A DNA stretch of 35,400 bases from Endomicrobium sp. (lineage in GTDB: Bacteria > Elusimicrobiota > Endomicrobiia > Endomicrobiales > Endomicrobiaceae), in assembly GCA_031264325.1 (NCBI GenBank), contig JAISEE010000029.1:1-35400 (forward strand), read 5' to 3'. The translations under genes and the position numbers were made by a program. This document shows positions 22,765-31,932 of this stretch, one piece after another. Position 1 is the stretch's first letter, and each line of letters begins with the position of its first letter. Below the pieces are notes generated by a model that saw only the letters and a list, made by a program, of their open reading frames with translations, was not told where the DNA came from and searched no databases.

Positions 22765-24162
22765 ATGAACAATTGTTTAATTAATTCTAAAGAATATTTT
22801 TTAACACTTTTATTTGTTTTTTTGTTGTATATATTTTTTACAGGAAAGACATACGCAACTGAAATTAATTATGATTTTGCCCAATGTGTTACTGCGAGTG
22901 TTGCTTTTTTGAATCAAGGCGCTGACGCTGTGGCAGATAAAGGAGCTATGACAGCAGTTTCGTCTGTAGCCCTAAATAGTATTGGAAACCTTTCTTTATT
23001 TGGCACGACTTTTATTGGAAAATCAAAATGTAAGATGGGGTCTCAAGGTAATCACATCGATTTAATCGTGACATTTTTAGTTGTAGGATTAGTAAAAAGT
23101 TTTAATACTGATTTTGGAAAACTAACACTTGGTCCATTTTTTGAACATGGCATAAGTTCTTGTGATGGATATAGAGACTTATCAATCACTGGGCTAGGAA
23201 ATCTTGGTTATAGTGGCGGTGGATTGTTGGGGCATATTGATTTTAGTAAAAATTTTTACAGTGAATTATCAGGTAAAGTGGGTTTTAATCAAACAGATTT
23301 TGCAATGGAATTTAGTAAGATAAAAAAATATGATTATAGGGCATTATATATGAACTGTCATGTAGGTTCTGGCTATGTGTTCAAAATAAACAATATTTTA
23401 AAATTTGACACTTACAGTAAATATTTTTTCACACACAAATTTAGCAAAAATGTTTATTTAAAGGATGACACGTTTTTTAGGTTTTTAGATATTAACTCTC
23501 AACGTATACGAATTGGAACAAGAATATCTTATATATTTAACAAACATGCAGTTGCTTATTGTGGAGCGGCATATGAGTATATTACTACAGAAACTATTGG
23601 CATTAAAAAAGGCTTAGCTGATAGTTTTTATACATTGAAAGGAGGAAGATGGATAGGAGAAATAGGCGTTTTTGAAAGCTTTAAGGATTTTTATTTTGGT
23701 TTAAGTGGTCAGTGTTATATCTGTGAACAAAGCGGTGTATTGCTAATGCTTGGAACTTCTTTTGATTTATTTAGCAGGATAGAAAAATTTTTAGGGTATT
23801 CTTCTGGAAAATTTTATTCAAAAAAAACCAAAAGATTTAGCAAAAATTTTAAGATGTCAAAGAAAAAATGTTTTGATAAAACTCTTGAAATAATAAAAAA
23901 ACTGAAAGCAAGAGTAACTCACAAGAGTTTTGATAAAGGTTATATCATAGCTTTTAATTTTGCCAAGAATTTTGACGGTTGTTGTTTGGATTCAACAGAA
24001 GTAGGAATTTTTATAACGGGAACAAGTTCTGAGAGCATAATTGTTGAAGTTTGTTCAGAAAATAATATACTTTGTAAAAAATTTTCTGTTAAATTTTTTG
24101 AAATGTTGATTGAAAAGTTTGATGATTTAAGCAAAGAAGACAACAATAAAAACAATGGGTAG
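22765..24162 (+). CDS. Secreted autotransporter-type beta-barrel protein with C-terminal extension
   Basis: A 465-residue protein. Residues 11-27 are a hydrophobic signal peptide with a likely cleavage after TYA (about 31). Residues about 95-335 resemble an autotransporter outer-membrane barrel: [77 protein letters not shown] and LMLGTSF as the presumed last strand. There is almost no passenger domain. Unusually, about 130 residues follow the barrel: a lysine-rich linker (about 336-370) and a cysteine-containing alpha/beta-looking segment (about 371-465) that I do not recognise. AGGAAT lies upstream of the ATG. It ends 10 bp before enolase. Confidence 0.7.
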
Positions 24163-24172
24163 GGAGGCATTT

Positions 24173-25477
24173 ATGGCAAAGATTAAAAAAATTAAAGGAA
24201 GAGAAATTGTTGATTCACGAGGAAATCCTACTGTTGAGGTGGATATTTTATTGGATGATGGAACTTTAGGAAGAGCGGCTGTTCCTTCCGGTGCCTCAAC
24301 TGGATCCAGAGAGGCTCTTGAACTTAGAGATGGAGACAAAAAAAGATTTGATGGTAAGGGTGTTTTAAAAGCTGTATCAAATGTTAATAAGGAAATAGCC
24401 TCAAAAATTGTTGGATTTGATGTAATCGAACAACAAAAAATAGATGAAACAATGATAAAACTTGATGGCACGGATTTTAAGAGTAATTTAGGGGCTAACG
24501 CTATACTTGGAGTATCTCTTGCGTGCGCTAAAGCCGGAGCTATTTCAAGTAGACTTCCTGTGTATGAGTATGTAAGAAAGACTTATGAAATCAAAAGCGA
24601 TAAATATATTTTGCCTGTTCCGTTGATGAATATTATAAACGGCGGCGAACATGCTGATAATAATGTTGATTTACAGGAGTTCATGATTGCTCCTATAAAT
24701 ATTTCTAGCTTTCATGAAGCTTTAAGGGTAGGCTGTGAAGTTTTTCATAGTTTAAAAAAAGTATTAAATAACAGAGGCTTTTCAACAGGTGTTGGCGATG
24801 AAGGTGGATTTGCCCCAAATTTAATATCTAATGAACAAGCCTTGGAAGTAATATGTGAAGCTGTTAAAACTGCAGGCTATGAAGTTGGAAAAGACATAGT
24901 TTTTGCTTTAGACGTAGCTGCAAGCGAGCTTTATAACAATGGCAAATATAAGCTTGATGGTGAAGTAAAAGACAAAGTAAAAACCTCGCAAGACATGATT
25001 GCTTTTTATGACAATCTTTTGAAGAAATATCCTATAATGTCTATAGAAGATGGTTTAAGCGAATCGGATTGGGATGGCTGGAAAACTCTTACTCAAGAGT
25101 TAAAATCTAAGTTACAACTTGTAGGTGACGATCTTTTTGTAACAAACACGAAAATATTTAAAGATGGCATAGACAAGCATATTGCAAATTCTATTCTTAT
25201 AAAAGTCAATCAAATAGGTTCTCTTTCAGAGACTGTTGCTGCTATTCAAATGGCTTATAAGGCTGGTTATACTGCTATTATGTCACACCGTTCGGGAGAA
25301 ACAGAAGATAGTATAATTGCAGATTTAGCTGTTGCTTTAAATACAGGGCAGATTAAAACAGGTTCTGCGTCAAGGACTGATAGAATGTGTAAATATAATC
25401 AGCTTTTAAGAATAGAGGAAGAGTTAGGTCCAGAGTCAAACTATTTGGGAATGGCCGTTTTTTCAAGCATAAAATAA
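24173..25477 (+). CDS. eno: Enolase
   Basis: A 434-residue enolase that interconverts 2-phosphoglycerate and phosphoenolpyruvate in glycolysis. It has [67 protein letters not shown], the catalytic-lysine region [15 protein letters not shown] and [17 protein letters not shown]. Residues and length are normal. ATG24173 follows AGGGAGG (24161-24167); a GTG-free earlier start at 24155 would add six residues and overlap the upstream gene. The barrel gene ends 10 bp before it, so the two may share a transcript. Confidence 0.98.
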
Positions 25478-26878: not shown

Positions 26879-27399
26879 GAATAGATAAATATTAAGGAAG
26901 GTTTACTAGGTTACTGTTAAAACACTGTTAATCGTATATTACTTGTTAGAAGACAAGCGTCATGTAAGTGTTATATAGTGCTCTTTGTTGGAGAAAACTT
27001 AAATCAGCAAAACATTGATACATCAATTAAAGTTTATGGGATAGATGAAAAAAATCCTGCAAGTTTTTTATCTGTTTAAGTACTAAAATATTAAATGACT
27101 TTAAACTCTACTCAGTCTTACTGATTGATGAATTATAAGATTTATTTTATTTGTCACTGTGATATTAAATCAATGTCAAAATTAGTATATTCTAAATCTT
27201 TAAATGTTTTAAAAGTGTTGTATGTCCAAATTATATTATCAAGATTAATATTTTAAAACATATACTTCTTGCGATGTGGTATTTTATATGTATGCATGTA
27301 TATTATATCAATGTAATGAGCATAAAATAAGGGCTTATTTTTTCATAGTTTTAGTTTTAAACTGTATTTAGCAATAATATTAAACTAAGTGTACCACAA

Positions 27400-27423
27400 A
27401 CACTTACAATTAATTGTAAGTGT
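27400..27423. repeat. Perfect 24-bp palindrome
   Basis: The half-site ACACTTACAATT (27400-27411) is followed with no spacer by its exact reverse complement (27412-27423). It could extrude as a cruciform, be an operator for a dimeric protein or be a remnant of a terminator. No gene is adjacent. Confidence 0.85.
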
Positions 27424-29406
27424 GCGTACAAATGAACTGTTTTGTGTTTTACGTTAGATTTAGAACACGTTGCCCGCAAAGTTGAGAGTATGTGCATAAT
27501 AAGTGTGTAGTTTATAGTTTATGCGTTTAAATAAAAAGTACATTTAGAAGTGTTGCCTTCTTAAATCAATCAAATGGTGCCATAACTTTTGTTTGCGAAT
27601 TGGACTGTTACGTGTATGTATTTTACTCCACATCAAAATATAGTTAAGGGTAGATTTATGTTTTCAAGGGTTGGGGCGCTTATTTAAAGCAAATTTATTT
27701 TTCTGTGTTTTCTTTTGTTTATATATTTACACTAATTTTAGAAACGGATTTTATAACTTTCTCGGAGTCTGTAAATGAATTTTGTGTTATTAATAAAAAG
27801 AAGTACTTGATATATATGAGTTTAAAATTTTGATAATCTCAATTATTTAAGAAAGATTTTTTTGACCGTTTTTAAAAGATATGTTATCAGTATATGTCTA
27901 CCTTGAATTTTGAATTATTTTTTGTGTAACTTTTGTACAAAATTGCTTTTAGAGAGCAAGGCAGAGTTGTTTTGTTAGTCAATTATAGGTATTTAAGATT
28001 TGTTTTTTTACTGTACTTTGATAGCGTTGAGAAACATTGAATTTGTCTTAATTTTTAGGAAAACCAATTATTAAATTAATTTTGTGGGATACTGTTCTTC
28101 TAAAATCCTTGCAATAAAAATAAAAAAGTAAACGTTATTTAGTATTATTCATAACTATTTTTATTTAAGAGTATGCAAATATCATATTTATTTGCAACGA
28201 TGAAAAAAGTTTTATTAATCATAATTATTTGCCGTATAATATACGAAACAATGTTTATTGTAAAAATAACCTGCCTATAGAAATTTGCTTACTATCGTAT
28301 TGTTATTGCCATACGGTTTATATGTGTTATATATGACAAACAGTTAAGGAATCTAATTTTTCTTTTTTTTAAAGCGACATAATTTCGAAGCGATGTTAAT
28401 AAAGTCGTCTAATTTGAGTAGAGAGATAATTAATTTTTATACCCCACATTAAAAAAGCTTTACAATTTCATTAATCAAAATTTGTTTGGTTGTTAATTAT
28501 CAAAGGCAAATATCTTTAGCAAAATGTAAATATAATGGTTGATGATTTGAGAATTAAGCGTCTTTTGGTTCTTTGTGATTTTTCCGAAAACATAAGTCTG
28601 TTTGATGTCGTTATATATTAATGGTATCATATAAAATTTATAATAATTCTTTTCTATAAAAAAAGAGCCATTGTTTCATCTGTATCCTGAAGTCGTTGAA
28701 TATATATAATTAATATGTAAAGAAGTAGGCACTTTTACGATTTTTTCTATGTGACAAAACTGTATAAAGAACAGATTAATATATAAAGTTCGTATATGAC
28801 ACATATTATATTGATTGTTTGAGTTTTATTGATATTGAGTGGAAATATTTTATTTAATAATATTTTTTATAAAAACTGAAATAAAAAAAACAATTAAAGT
28901 TGTTGTAATATTCAAAGTCGCTTTTAAATATTTTAAACAACTATGACTTTTGATTTGCATTTTGAAATAAAATTTCGAAGTGTAAAATTTGTTCTTAAGT
29001 CTCATAAAGAAAGACAGTCAGTTAAATATAGTCACATATACAGCGTATCTTTTATTTGAAAATAAAGAGCAAAAAGTTTTGGATATTTATTAATAATGTT
29101 TTGGTAGATGTTAAAACGAATCACAAATACAAAGTATTATTTATTTTCACATTGTATATTTGCGTTTTTTGTCAATTCAAGTATTTTTTATGCTTTTTTA
29201 ATAATTTATTGGTGAATTTCAGTATATAATTTTTAGAGTGGAATTGTCTATTATCTTCTATAAAAATTTTATTGAAAAAACTGTGAAAGTAAAAAAGAAG
29301 GTGCAAGTTATCATATGCTACACATTGCGCTAATTAATATTAACGATTTAAGTTTTGCTGTGCTTTTCCTGTACTTGAAAGCATGATAGAGATGTTAAAG
29401 ACTTAA

Positions 29407-29735
29407 GGACTTATAATTATTTTTTATCCTTTAAACTCTACGGTAACAATTCAAAATAAATGCATCAAAAATGAAGAGTTATTTAGAAACTTATTAGTAC
29501 TTGGGCTTGATGAGATAAATATAGAGATAGAAAGTATTGAAAGTTTCAGTTTGTTAAAACATATTTTTGATAAATTTATAATAACGTCTAAAGTAAATTC
29601 AATAGTTGAATTTACTTTAATTAGTGAACATCGATCTATGAAGCAATAAAACTTTTGGGTTATGAAAAAGACAGAAATGTCATAGAACAGAAAGTTAGTG
29701 TGGATAATGTTATAAACATTATAATGATTTATTGA
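29407..29735 (+). pseudogene. Frameshifted remnant of an unidentified gene
   Basis: A frame open from 29407 to 29649 contains NEELFRNLLVLGLDEINIEI and KHIFDKFIITSKVNSIVEFT; it has no usable start codon. Near 29630 good protein texture passes to another frame (SIYEAIKLLGYEKDRNVIEQ, then KVSVDNVINIIMIY) that ends at 29735. One frameshift therefore joins two parts of what was one protein. The opposite-strand frame here is less protein-like. I do not recognise the family. Confidence 0.45.
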
Positions 29736-30136
29736 ACTATAATTATGCAAATTATGCACATACATAATATTTCGTTAACAATTTTAGCAGATGAAGTATG
29801 TAAGTTTATAAACTATAGAAAATGTAGTGATAAGTGCAAGTGCCACACACTACAAACATATTTTGAATTATATTAAATGGCGAAAGATATAGGTAGTTTT
29901 AACAGAACAAGTACAAAAGTACTAGATATTTAGCAGGAAGCTTATAGATATAAAAATATATATTATAAAACATTTTCAATAATCATTTGAAATGTTTTAA
30001 ATGCAAATGGTTTGAATGAAATAAAAGTTTTATGTGTTTTATTGATAACTTTTTAATTATATAGTAGATAATATAGCAAGGTAGAGATAATAATTCTTTA
30101 AAAGAAATTTTAAGATTATCTTAATAAGCCAAATAG

Positions 30137-30259
30137 TTGTGGAATTATCAACAAAAGGTAGTTTGTCAGATTTTAAAAACACAGATTGCATTATTTGTTA
30201 ATTTAATTGTTGTGTTGGAAGTGTCTGTTGAAGAATTTTTTAAAAAAGAGTGTTTGTGA
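30137..30259 (+). pseudogene. Short remnant resembling the end of an XRE-type regulator
   Basis: An open frame of 40 codons without a start ends VVLEVSVEEFFKKECL. The pattern (aliphatic-L-x-V-S-V-E-E-F-F) resembles the last helices of an XRE-type helix-turn-helix domain, where L-x-V-S-x-D/E-E-L/F-F is common. The recognition-helix region upstream is degraded or missing. The resemblance is by eye only. Confidence 0.25.
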
Positions 30260-31932
30260 ATATAAAATTTATATAATAGCGACTCTTTTTAAAAATTTTA
30301 TCTGAACTTAAGCTGTATTATTAATCTGTACTTGATGATTTTAATAAAAAATATCATTTAGCAAAATATAGTTGACAATGCTAATCCAAGAGAAGAATTT
30401 TAGATCTACAAAACAACAAACAAGAAAGTATCTTGGGGAGTTGCATATGCGTTTGAATTATTTAGAAGATGAGCGGATGTTAAATTTATTGTATTCTTCA
30501 GCCATTCATTGCGAAGTCTGAGTCTACCTAAAATGTCTCTAAATAAGTAATTTAATATTTTTAAATGTTGTTTGTTTGACATAATGCAAGATAAGCGGTT
30601 TTTGTGGTGCATTGTCTGTAAATTTTATACAAGGCATGGTGGTGGTGGATAACCCATACACGATTTTGCGTTTTATAGACTGTACTTTTATCATAAGTAT
30701 TATAGCTTTGTAATCTTATTTTATTACACATCTTACACACCTTCCAAATATGGCTTGTTGTTCTGAAAAAGAAAGGTTAGTTAATTTCTACAAAATTACT
30801 TTCTCTTTTATATTTTTCATGTTTTCAAATTTATTTGTCAATTTTTTCATATACATTGTAAGATGAAACATAAAACTGTAATATTAATCATTTTTTCATA
30901 AAATAATAGTTTTTGAATAATTTTTTTGAAAGGGTAAGAATTCATTATCTGTAGGGTTACAGTAAAAAATATAGTTGTAAAATGGGGTTGTCGTAGGCAT
31001 AGAACAATGCACTTTATAAGTGCAATTAATATAGAAATAAAAATTATGTGAAGCCATACAACATACTTAAAATTTTTTTGTATTGTTAATGTTTGTGACA
31101 GTTATTGTCATTGATCTCGTAGTTGGGATTCTGTCAAATTACGATAGAGCATATTTTTGCTATTTCTTGAGTTGTGTTTTATATTTATCTATGGTTTTGG
31201 ATTTTGCCTAAGCTTAATTATAATACCTGATGGCATAGAGACAAGGCTGAGTCCCAAAGAAACTATTGATTTAGAATTGAAATAAAACGATTGTAATTCT
31301 GTTTGCAAAACTCATTGTTACATGGATTTGGAGGAGCGTATTTGTTTTTTAAGCTTTAAAAACTTGTTACTATTAAAATGCTTTAGCCATTTGCAGTTTG
31401 TGGTTATAAATCTGTTTGCTATATATTTTTGTATTGTTCTATAAACTATAACTACAAAAGTTACAAAAAGTTCTAGGTTCTAGAGTATAACTTTTGAGAG
31501 TAATTTCAAATTGTTATAGGAATCCAGAATATCAGAATAACTATAAAAGATACTATAAGCCAGAAGCCAGGAGTTATATCTATGATTATATGATTATTTG
31601 GAATGCTGTATAAATTCTTACGATTTATTTTTATTAGAACAAATTTTTGGTTTAATATTTTTAACTAGCTTAATTTTATTAAAACTATTTTCAGCTGATG
31701 ATAACTTGGAAATTTTTATTATTTTTTATATATTCTCTTGCACTATATCAATTCTATGTAACAAAAAAATGTTTTCATTGAATTTTTGTTTATAATATAA
31801 AATTCGAAAAATTTGAAACTTTTTAATTTAAATAAAAATAAATGAAACACCATATTATATTAAATTTTGATATTTGATATGATAACCTTAAGTTTATACA
31901 AAAAAATTGTGGTGTTTGTATTTACATTATAA

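Follow-up and report, generated by a model that had tools for sequence, protein, structure and literature searches.

An open reading frame upstream of eno in an Endomicrobiellum genome, likely combining an autotransporter-type barrel with a domain of lipoprotein descent

The locus and its open reading frames

The window analyzed here, a stretch of 35,400 nucleotides, is contig C24 of an 802-kb MAG that is 75% complete and comes from an Endomicrobiellum termite flagellate endosymbiont of the Elusimicrobiota; among named genomes, MAGs of Candidatus Endomicrobiellum and Endomicrobium sp. are the closest to it. Endomicrobiellum consists of termite-gut flagellate endosymbionts within the Endomicrobiaceae (PMC11257099, Mies et al. 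2024). The features of the locus, with the basis on which each was delimited, are as follows.

22765-24162, forward strand: fused open reading frame, 465 aa in a single open frame
22765..22857, forward strand: signal peptide, residues 1 to ~31, cleavage near TYA-TE (hydrophobic stretch then TYA, read from the sequence)
22873..23034, forward strand: linker region retained from the autotransporter, residues ~37-90 (alignment with the passenger-barrel segment of the fused proteins of G020 and G007)
23035..23769, forward strand: autotransporter-type beta-barrel, residues ~91-335, last strand ~324-335 (barrel profile, PF03797, PDB, paralogue ends)
23770..24114, forward strand: C-terminal domain, residues 336 to ~450, matching the mature Endomicrobiaceae lipoprotein from ~+4 (stand-alone genes in congeners and other genera)
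24115..24162, forward strand: charged tail, residues 451-465, and stop codon (poorly conserved; length and sequence vary among close relatives)
24161..24167, forward strand: probable Shine-Dalgarno of eno, AGGGAGG (overlaps the fused-gene stop; read from the sequence)
24173..25477, forward strand: eno (enolase), likely start ATG 24173 (sequence; order common to most fused relatives)

The original prediction had described a signal peptide, the lack of a large N-terminal passenger, a barrel end at LMLGTSF near residue 333, some 130 further residues and a position abutting enolase, and all of these were borne out: the hydrophobic stretch and TYA were read from the sequence of the 465-aa ORF, only about 60 residues lie between signal peptide and barrel, the last strand stops at about L335 (judged by paralogue ends and the barrel profile), about 130 residues follow where most paralogues finish, and the stop codon of the fused gene (24160-24162) overlaps the AGGGAGG (24161-24167) of eno. 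We thus confirmed the observation of a barrel with an extra C-terminal domain before eno. The ORF finder places the eno start at 24155, which is probably too far upstream; ATG 24173, with AGGGAGG 5 bases before it, is likelier. Elsewhere in the window, between rpsT and a folK-like gene (26889-31932), about 5 kb have no convincing ORF (longest 104 aa), as either a gene desert or a decayed region in a reduced genome.

Conservation of the fused frame and family of the barrel

When 60 related genomes were searched with the window protein, three kinds of match were found, namely near full-length homologues (37-74% identity, stop-free in most cases), larger ORFs (in many cases about 750-1100 aa) matching only residues ~38-335, and small ORFs matching only residues ~326-450, which is the pattern expected of a two-part fusion. 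Pfam and NCBIfam searches of the window protein gave no real match, and no conserved family of full-length homologues with a known function was found, so the reading as a fusion was not refuted. Full-length conservation in congeners (74, 72, 65, 64, 65, 55 and 55% identity, no stops), together with the separate recovery of the fused ORF from named Endomicrobiellum MAGs, indicates that it is neither a chance product nor an assembly artefact. An assembly or frameshift artefact joining two adjacent genes might be suspected from the fact that the window derives from a MAG and that the related bin G063 is demonstrably mixed, but the same in-frame arrangement is present in more than 20 genomes and dN/dS is <1 on both sides for nearly all pairs; such an origin is extremely improbable, and the conservation already refutes it.

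The bin G063 (contig C11, locus L098) holds both the fused and the stand-alone form of the locus. We rejected it as a genome with both forms because the bin was judged a mixture: it has two dxr genes, and the dxr copy next to the fusion shares 85-86% identity with the G010/G012/G032 clade, which makes a mixture of two strains probable.

We aligned 37 fused and unfused barrels, 19 of which matched PF03797 (best 5.9e-23), and the fused homologue L131 matched it at 7.5e-13. The window's own barrel does not reach this model; it is 40-72% identical to fused homologues, one PF03797-matching protein among them, and its assignment therefore relies on homology to the matching relatives. A PDB search with the barrel profile (E<=1) returned only autotransporter barrels, BrkA (0.0029) and EspP (about 0.07), as weak matches, and no intimin-type barrel was matched among the barrel-profile searches. 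The predicted barrel survived this attempt at refutation, as the evidence from PF03797 in the relatives and from BrkA and EspP supports it, and the putative assignment of the window barrel to the type Va family (PF03797-type) held up.

Both halves of the protein are under purifying selection. Pairwise dN/dS of the barrel (Nei-Gojobori) was 0.17-0.40 in all pairs but G010/G012 (0.59, a very close pair), and that of the C-terminal domain was lower than the barrel's in most pairs. For pairs with the window protein the barrel gave 0.32-0.40, versus 0.17-0.25 among near relatives, which leaves room for relaxed constraint in the window's lineage. Two barrel paralogues, L163 (G019) and L165 (G004), have about 60-70 charged residues (DRKDITLTKIRRKAEKLLVKKVERRVNDLK...) after their last strand MLKAKFYF, a second kind of C-terminally extended barrel that is unrelated to the lipoprotein domain.

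A lipoprotein family and the history of the fusion

In congeners without the fusion, the counterpart of residues 336-450 is a separate ORF, often directly before eno (L099, L100, L122-L125), so that the small gene upstream of eno, proposed for search in relatives, does exist and encodes a lipoprotein with a lipobox. G071, probably the genome of the cultured, free-living Endomicrobium proavitum, likewise has the stand-alone form. The stand-alone ORFs are mostly 140-185 aa measured stop to stop (the lipoprotein about 140 aa), and the proteins have a signal peptide with a lipobox at its end (LMSC, LTSC, LTGC, FTSC) and, after it, a conserved mature start, C-[SA]-VLDYPxRxLGFSIEKF. A lipobox was present in 23 of 26 stand-alone-type ORFs (LTSCS in L120, LMSCA in L099), and none of the 26 had Asp at +2, the residue which in E. 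coli signals inner-membrane retention. The stand-alone protein of G065 (L100:3984-4412, reverse strand) carries Tyr where the lipobox cysteine would be (LMSY), and its lipid anchor was therefore probably lost without the gain of a barrel.

The family profile found one copy per genome across Endomicrobiaceae and in one sister-family genome, and no match in the other genomes among the 286 Elusimicrobiota searched; the family is absent from Pfam. The window protein matched the profile at E = 3.0e-54 over a 115-residue domain with a CLDSTE motif. Compared with the stand-alone lipoprotein, window residues 336-450 are about 44-57% identical within the genus and share the position upstream of eno, whereas the fused form lacks the lipoprotein signal peptide and the lipid-bearing cysteine and has an autotransporter barrel instead, the barrel end standing in place of the lipobox cysteine. 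By these alignments, the C-terminal domain of the window protein is taken to be a descendant of the lipoprotein that is itself no longer a lipoprotein.

Two details of the original prediction have to be revised in this light. The supposed lysine-rich linker is not a separate linker, since the segment is the N-terminal part of the lipoprotein domain; and the five cysteines after residue 335 are indeed present (369, 406, 407, 430, 437), with only C407 (CLDSTE) nearly invariant in the family, so that we ruled them out as a functional disulphide or metal signature. A PDB profile search with the C-terminal domain gave nothing convincing (best 2op5, E 0.034), and weak matches to GNT-I (0.015) and MDD_C (0.028) were inconsistent across members and taken as chance. 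None of 40 C-terminal domains matched the Pfam OmpA peptidoglycan-binding domain, and no relative of the domain was found in viral contigs. With seven close relatives as input sequences, AlphaFold gave no confident structure (pLDDT 26.8 for the full protein and 40.2 for the C-terminal domain); the pattern of the domain might resemble a BamC-like or DUF3568-like fold.

At loci where no eno was found (e.g. L116, L117, L127, L106, L108), the lipoprotein gene still adjoins a DivIC/FtsB gene (PF04977 matches for those tested), and this persistence argues that the lipoprotein is not an enolase accessory; enolase loss has been reported in several Endomicrobiaceae lineages (PMC11257099). DivIC and the fused gene are on different contigs in the window genome. 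The conservation beside DivIC weakly suggests an envelope or division role for the domain. Beside the window genome's DivIC gene (G000 contig C21) is an LptE-family lipoprotein gene (L201:1661-2245, reverse strand; PF04390, 6.1e-10), and LptD has been reported absent from all Endomicrobiaceae (PMC11257099). The small, reduced genome G034 has only a broken remnant of the lipoprotein domain (L115:2692-2760, reverse strand), next to an intact DivIC gene.

Most unfused barrel paralogues stop at the last strand (...GVEGMLKAKLTI and stop in L162), while fused proteins run on in frame past it (...GFSGMLRFSFAF followed directly by FNYANRCLGYSLEKF in L128, and likewise in the window protein), and what follows the strand can be aligned with the lipoprotein starting near mature residue +4. 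This position of the junction indicates that a whole translocator was joined to a nearly whole mature lipoprotein, and that the joining removed the stop along with the signal peptide of the lipoprotein and its lipid-bearing cysteine. The proposal of a barrel gene fused with the 3' part of a gene that once preceded eno is supported, as congeners without the fusion encode the separate lipoprotein, many of them directly upstream of eno. An in-frame deletion is plausible as the simplest DNA route; a DNA scar of the deletion was not found.

The fused barrels formed one clade against 20 paralogues (SH-aLRT 96), and the fused and eroded C-terminal domains fell on one side of a single branch (93). Since the infB tree leaves the deep order in the genus without resolution, a single fusion in the ancestor of part of Endomicrobiellum appears well supported and not proven. 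Fused relatives L128, L097 and L129 keep homologous passengers, that of L128 passing the NCBIfam LOFI repeat model, and we therefore place the loss of the passenger after the fusion. In the window and 17 other genomes the passenger is gone and the linker region kept, and L118, L126 and probably L127 have lost nearly all of the barrel and keep an intact C-terminal domain. Among the 42 genomes of the genus, 18 have the fused form without passenger, 3 the fused form with passenger, 3 an eroded form, 13 the stand-alone form (including G017, divergent and without lipobox) and 1 a pseudogene (G034), and in 4 the locus was not found (including G033, whose contig breaks off just before eno, and G022, half complete); G064, cut by a contig end, was counted by its close relatives. 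The passenger was lost one to three times, a range that follows from the unsure position of G007 (long branch). The most economical explanation would be a chance deletion fixed in small endosymbiont populations, after which the passenger would have been useless inside the host cell.

The barrel as an anchor, alternative readings and comparison with known systems

The C-terminal strand of type Va barrels ends on the periplasmic side. We consider it probable that an autotransporter, complete through its last strand, and the mature eno-upstream lipoprotein were combined so that the barrel replaces the lipid as an OmpA-like anchor. The signal peptide would direct the protein to the periplasm, BamA would insert the 12-strand-type barrel into the outer membrane via the last strand, now internal, and the C-terminal domain would hang from the barrel in the periplasm, the barrel taking over from the lipid as its outer-membrane anchor. 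Membrane insertion, topology and the periplasmic side of the domain are thus predictions, and a barrel with a periplasmic C-terminal domain, the first of the two alternatives originally offered, is the most likely present-day topology. In type Va autotransporters BAM inserts the barrel, whose pore is plugged by a helical linker (PMC3297439); no member of the Endomicrobiaceae is reported to have BamB, BamC or BamD (PMC11257099). Omp85/BamA, Lgt and LspA are all still encoded in the window genome.

We ruled out the fusion as compensation for lost lipoprotein maturation, since lgt and lspA occur both in the window genome and in each of the 15 best-quality genomes of the genus, and the persistence of Lgt and LspA indicates that the exchange of anchors was not forced. 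Barrel erosion as a consequence of BamA loss was not supported, since BamA is present in G011 and G029; in G003, a genome 34% complete, it was not found. The near absence of the barrel in L118, L126 and probably L127 implies that it is not indispensable as an anchor.

These eroded forms also bear on the reading of the window barrel as a decay intermediate, a vestige of a former autotransporter in which nothing but the C-terminal domain counts and a signal peptide with any membrane contact is enough. The loss of the passenger in 18 genomes, the window's included, the eroded barrels with intact C-terminal domains, the higher barrel dN/dS in the window's lineage than in relatives and the reduced genome are all consistent with decay, but barrel dN/dS is <0.41 in all pairs but one and both the frame and the last strand are kept in the 18 passengerless genomes, and we regard this reading as unlikely. 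Conservation of the barrel without a passenger, and the reported loss of OmpA and other outer-membrane proteins in many Endomicrobiellum (PMC11257099), would also suit a pore, with the barrel as a channel for host-cell nutrients and the C-terminal domain as its periplasmic gate or binding part. Retention of the linker region, the pore plug in type Va autotransporters, speaks against such a channel, nothing specific points to transport, and we hold it to be quite improbable. The extra domain follows the barrel, as it does in type Ve proteins, which suggests that the C-terminal domain might be a new passenger exported by the barrel to the surface in the manner of intimin/invasin; this arrangement is very improbable, since barrels of the classical family, to which this one belongs, have a periplasmic C-terminus, the searches matched no intimin-type barrel, and the ancestor of the domain was a lipoprotein whose sorting residues are of the outer-membrane type.

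The anchor reading, in which the barrel holds the lipoprotein-derived domain, has a stronger form: the translocator would have given up secretion for good and would serve in the outer membrane as the anchor of a conserved periplasmic envelope domain, with the lipid anchor replaced in one step. We see this stronger form as evenly balanced. If it is true, the stages of the process survive in the lineage (forms with a passenger, without one, and with an eroded barrel), and BAM can make do with an internal last strand in bacteria from which BamB, BamC and BamD are reported missing. The anchor reading itself, if true, means that, between orthologous genes at a single locus, a beta-barrel has naturally taken the place of a lipid as the anchor. 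For autotransporter evolution it would be a case in which the passenger, usually the functional part, was lost and the translocator kept, the translocator staying because something useful is attached to its other end. It makes accessible to testing how well BAM inserts a type Va barrel with a non-terminal last strand, and reveals an uncharacterised, nearly universal Endomicrobiaceae lipoprotein that is kept even where enolase is lost.

Compared with classical (type Va) autotransporters such as EspP and BrkA, the window protein has the signal peptide, the linker and a barrel of the same family, and Endomicrobium paralogues and three fused relatives carry N-terminal passengers; it differs in being without a passenger and in having an extension of the size of a folded domain after the last strand, normally the protein end. 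Type Ve proteins (intimin/invasin) likewise have a barrel and then C-terminal sequence; these inverse autotransporters export the C-terminal part and have a small periplasmic domain at the N-terminus (PMC3297439), whereas the window barrel is of the classical family and its extra domain is derived from a lipoprotein. The likeness to OmpA and Pal lies in a periplasmic domain held by a barrel (OmpA) or by a lipid (Pal), the same alternative as is found here between orthologues. In contrast to OmpA, the window barrel is autotransporter-type and not 8-strand, and no Pfam OmpA domain was detected, so the protein would follow the OmpA principle, working like OmpA and not being a member of its family. 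Taken with these comparisons, the window protein is likely a barrel-anchored periplasmic domain built from an autotransporter and a lipoprotein.
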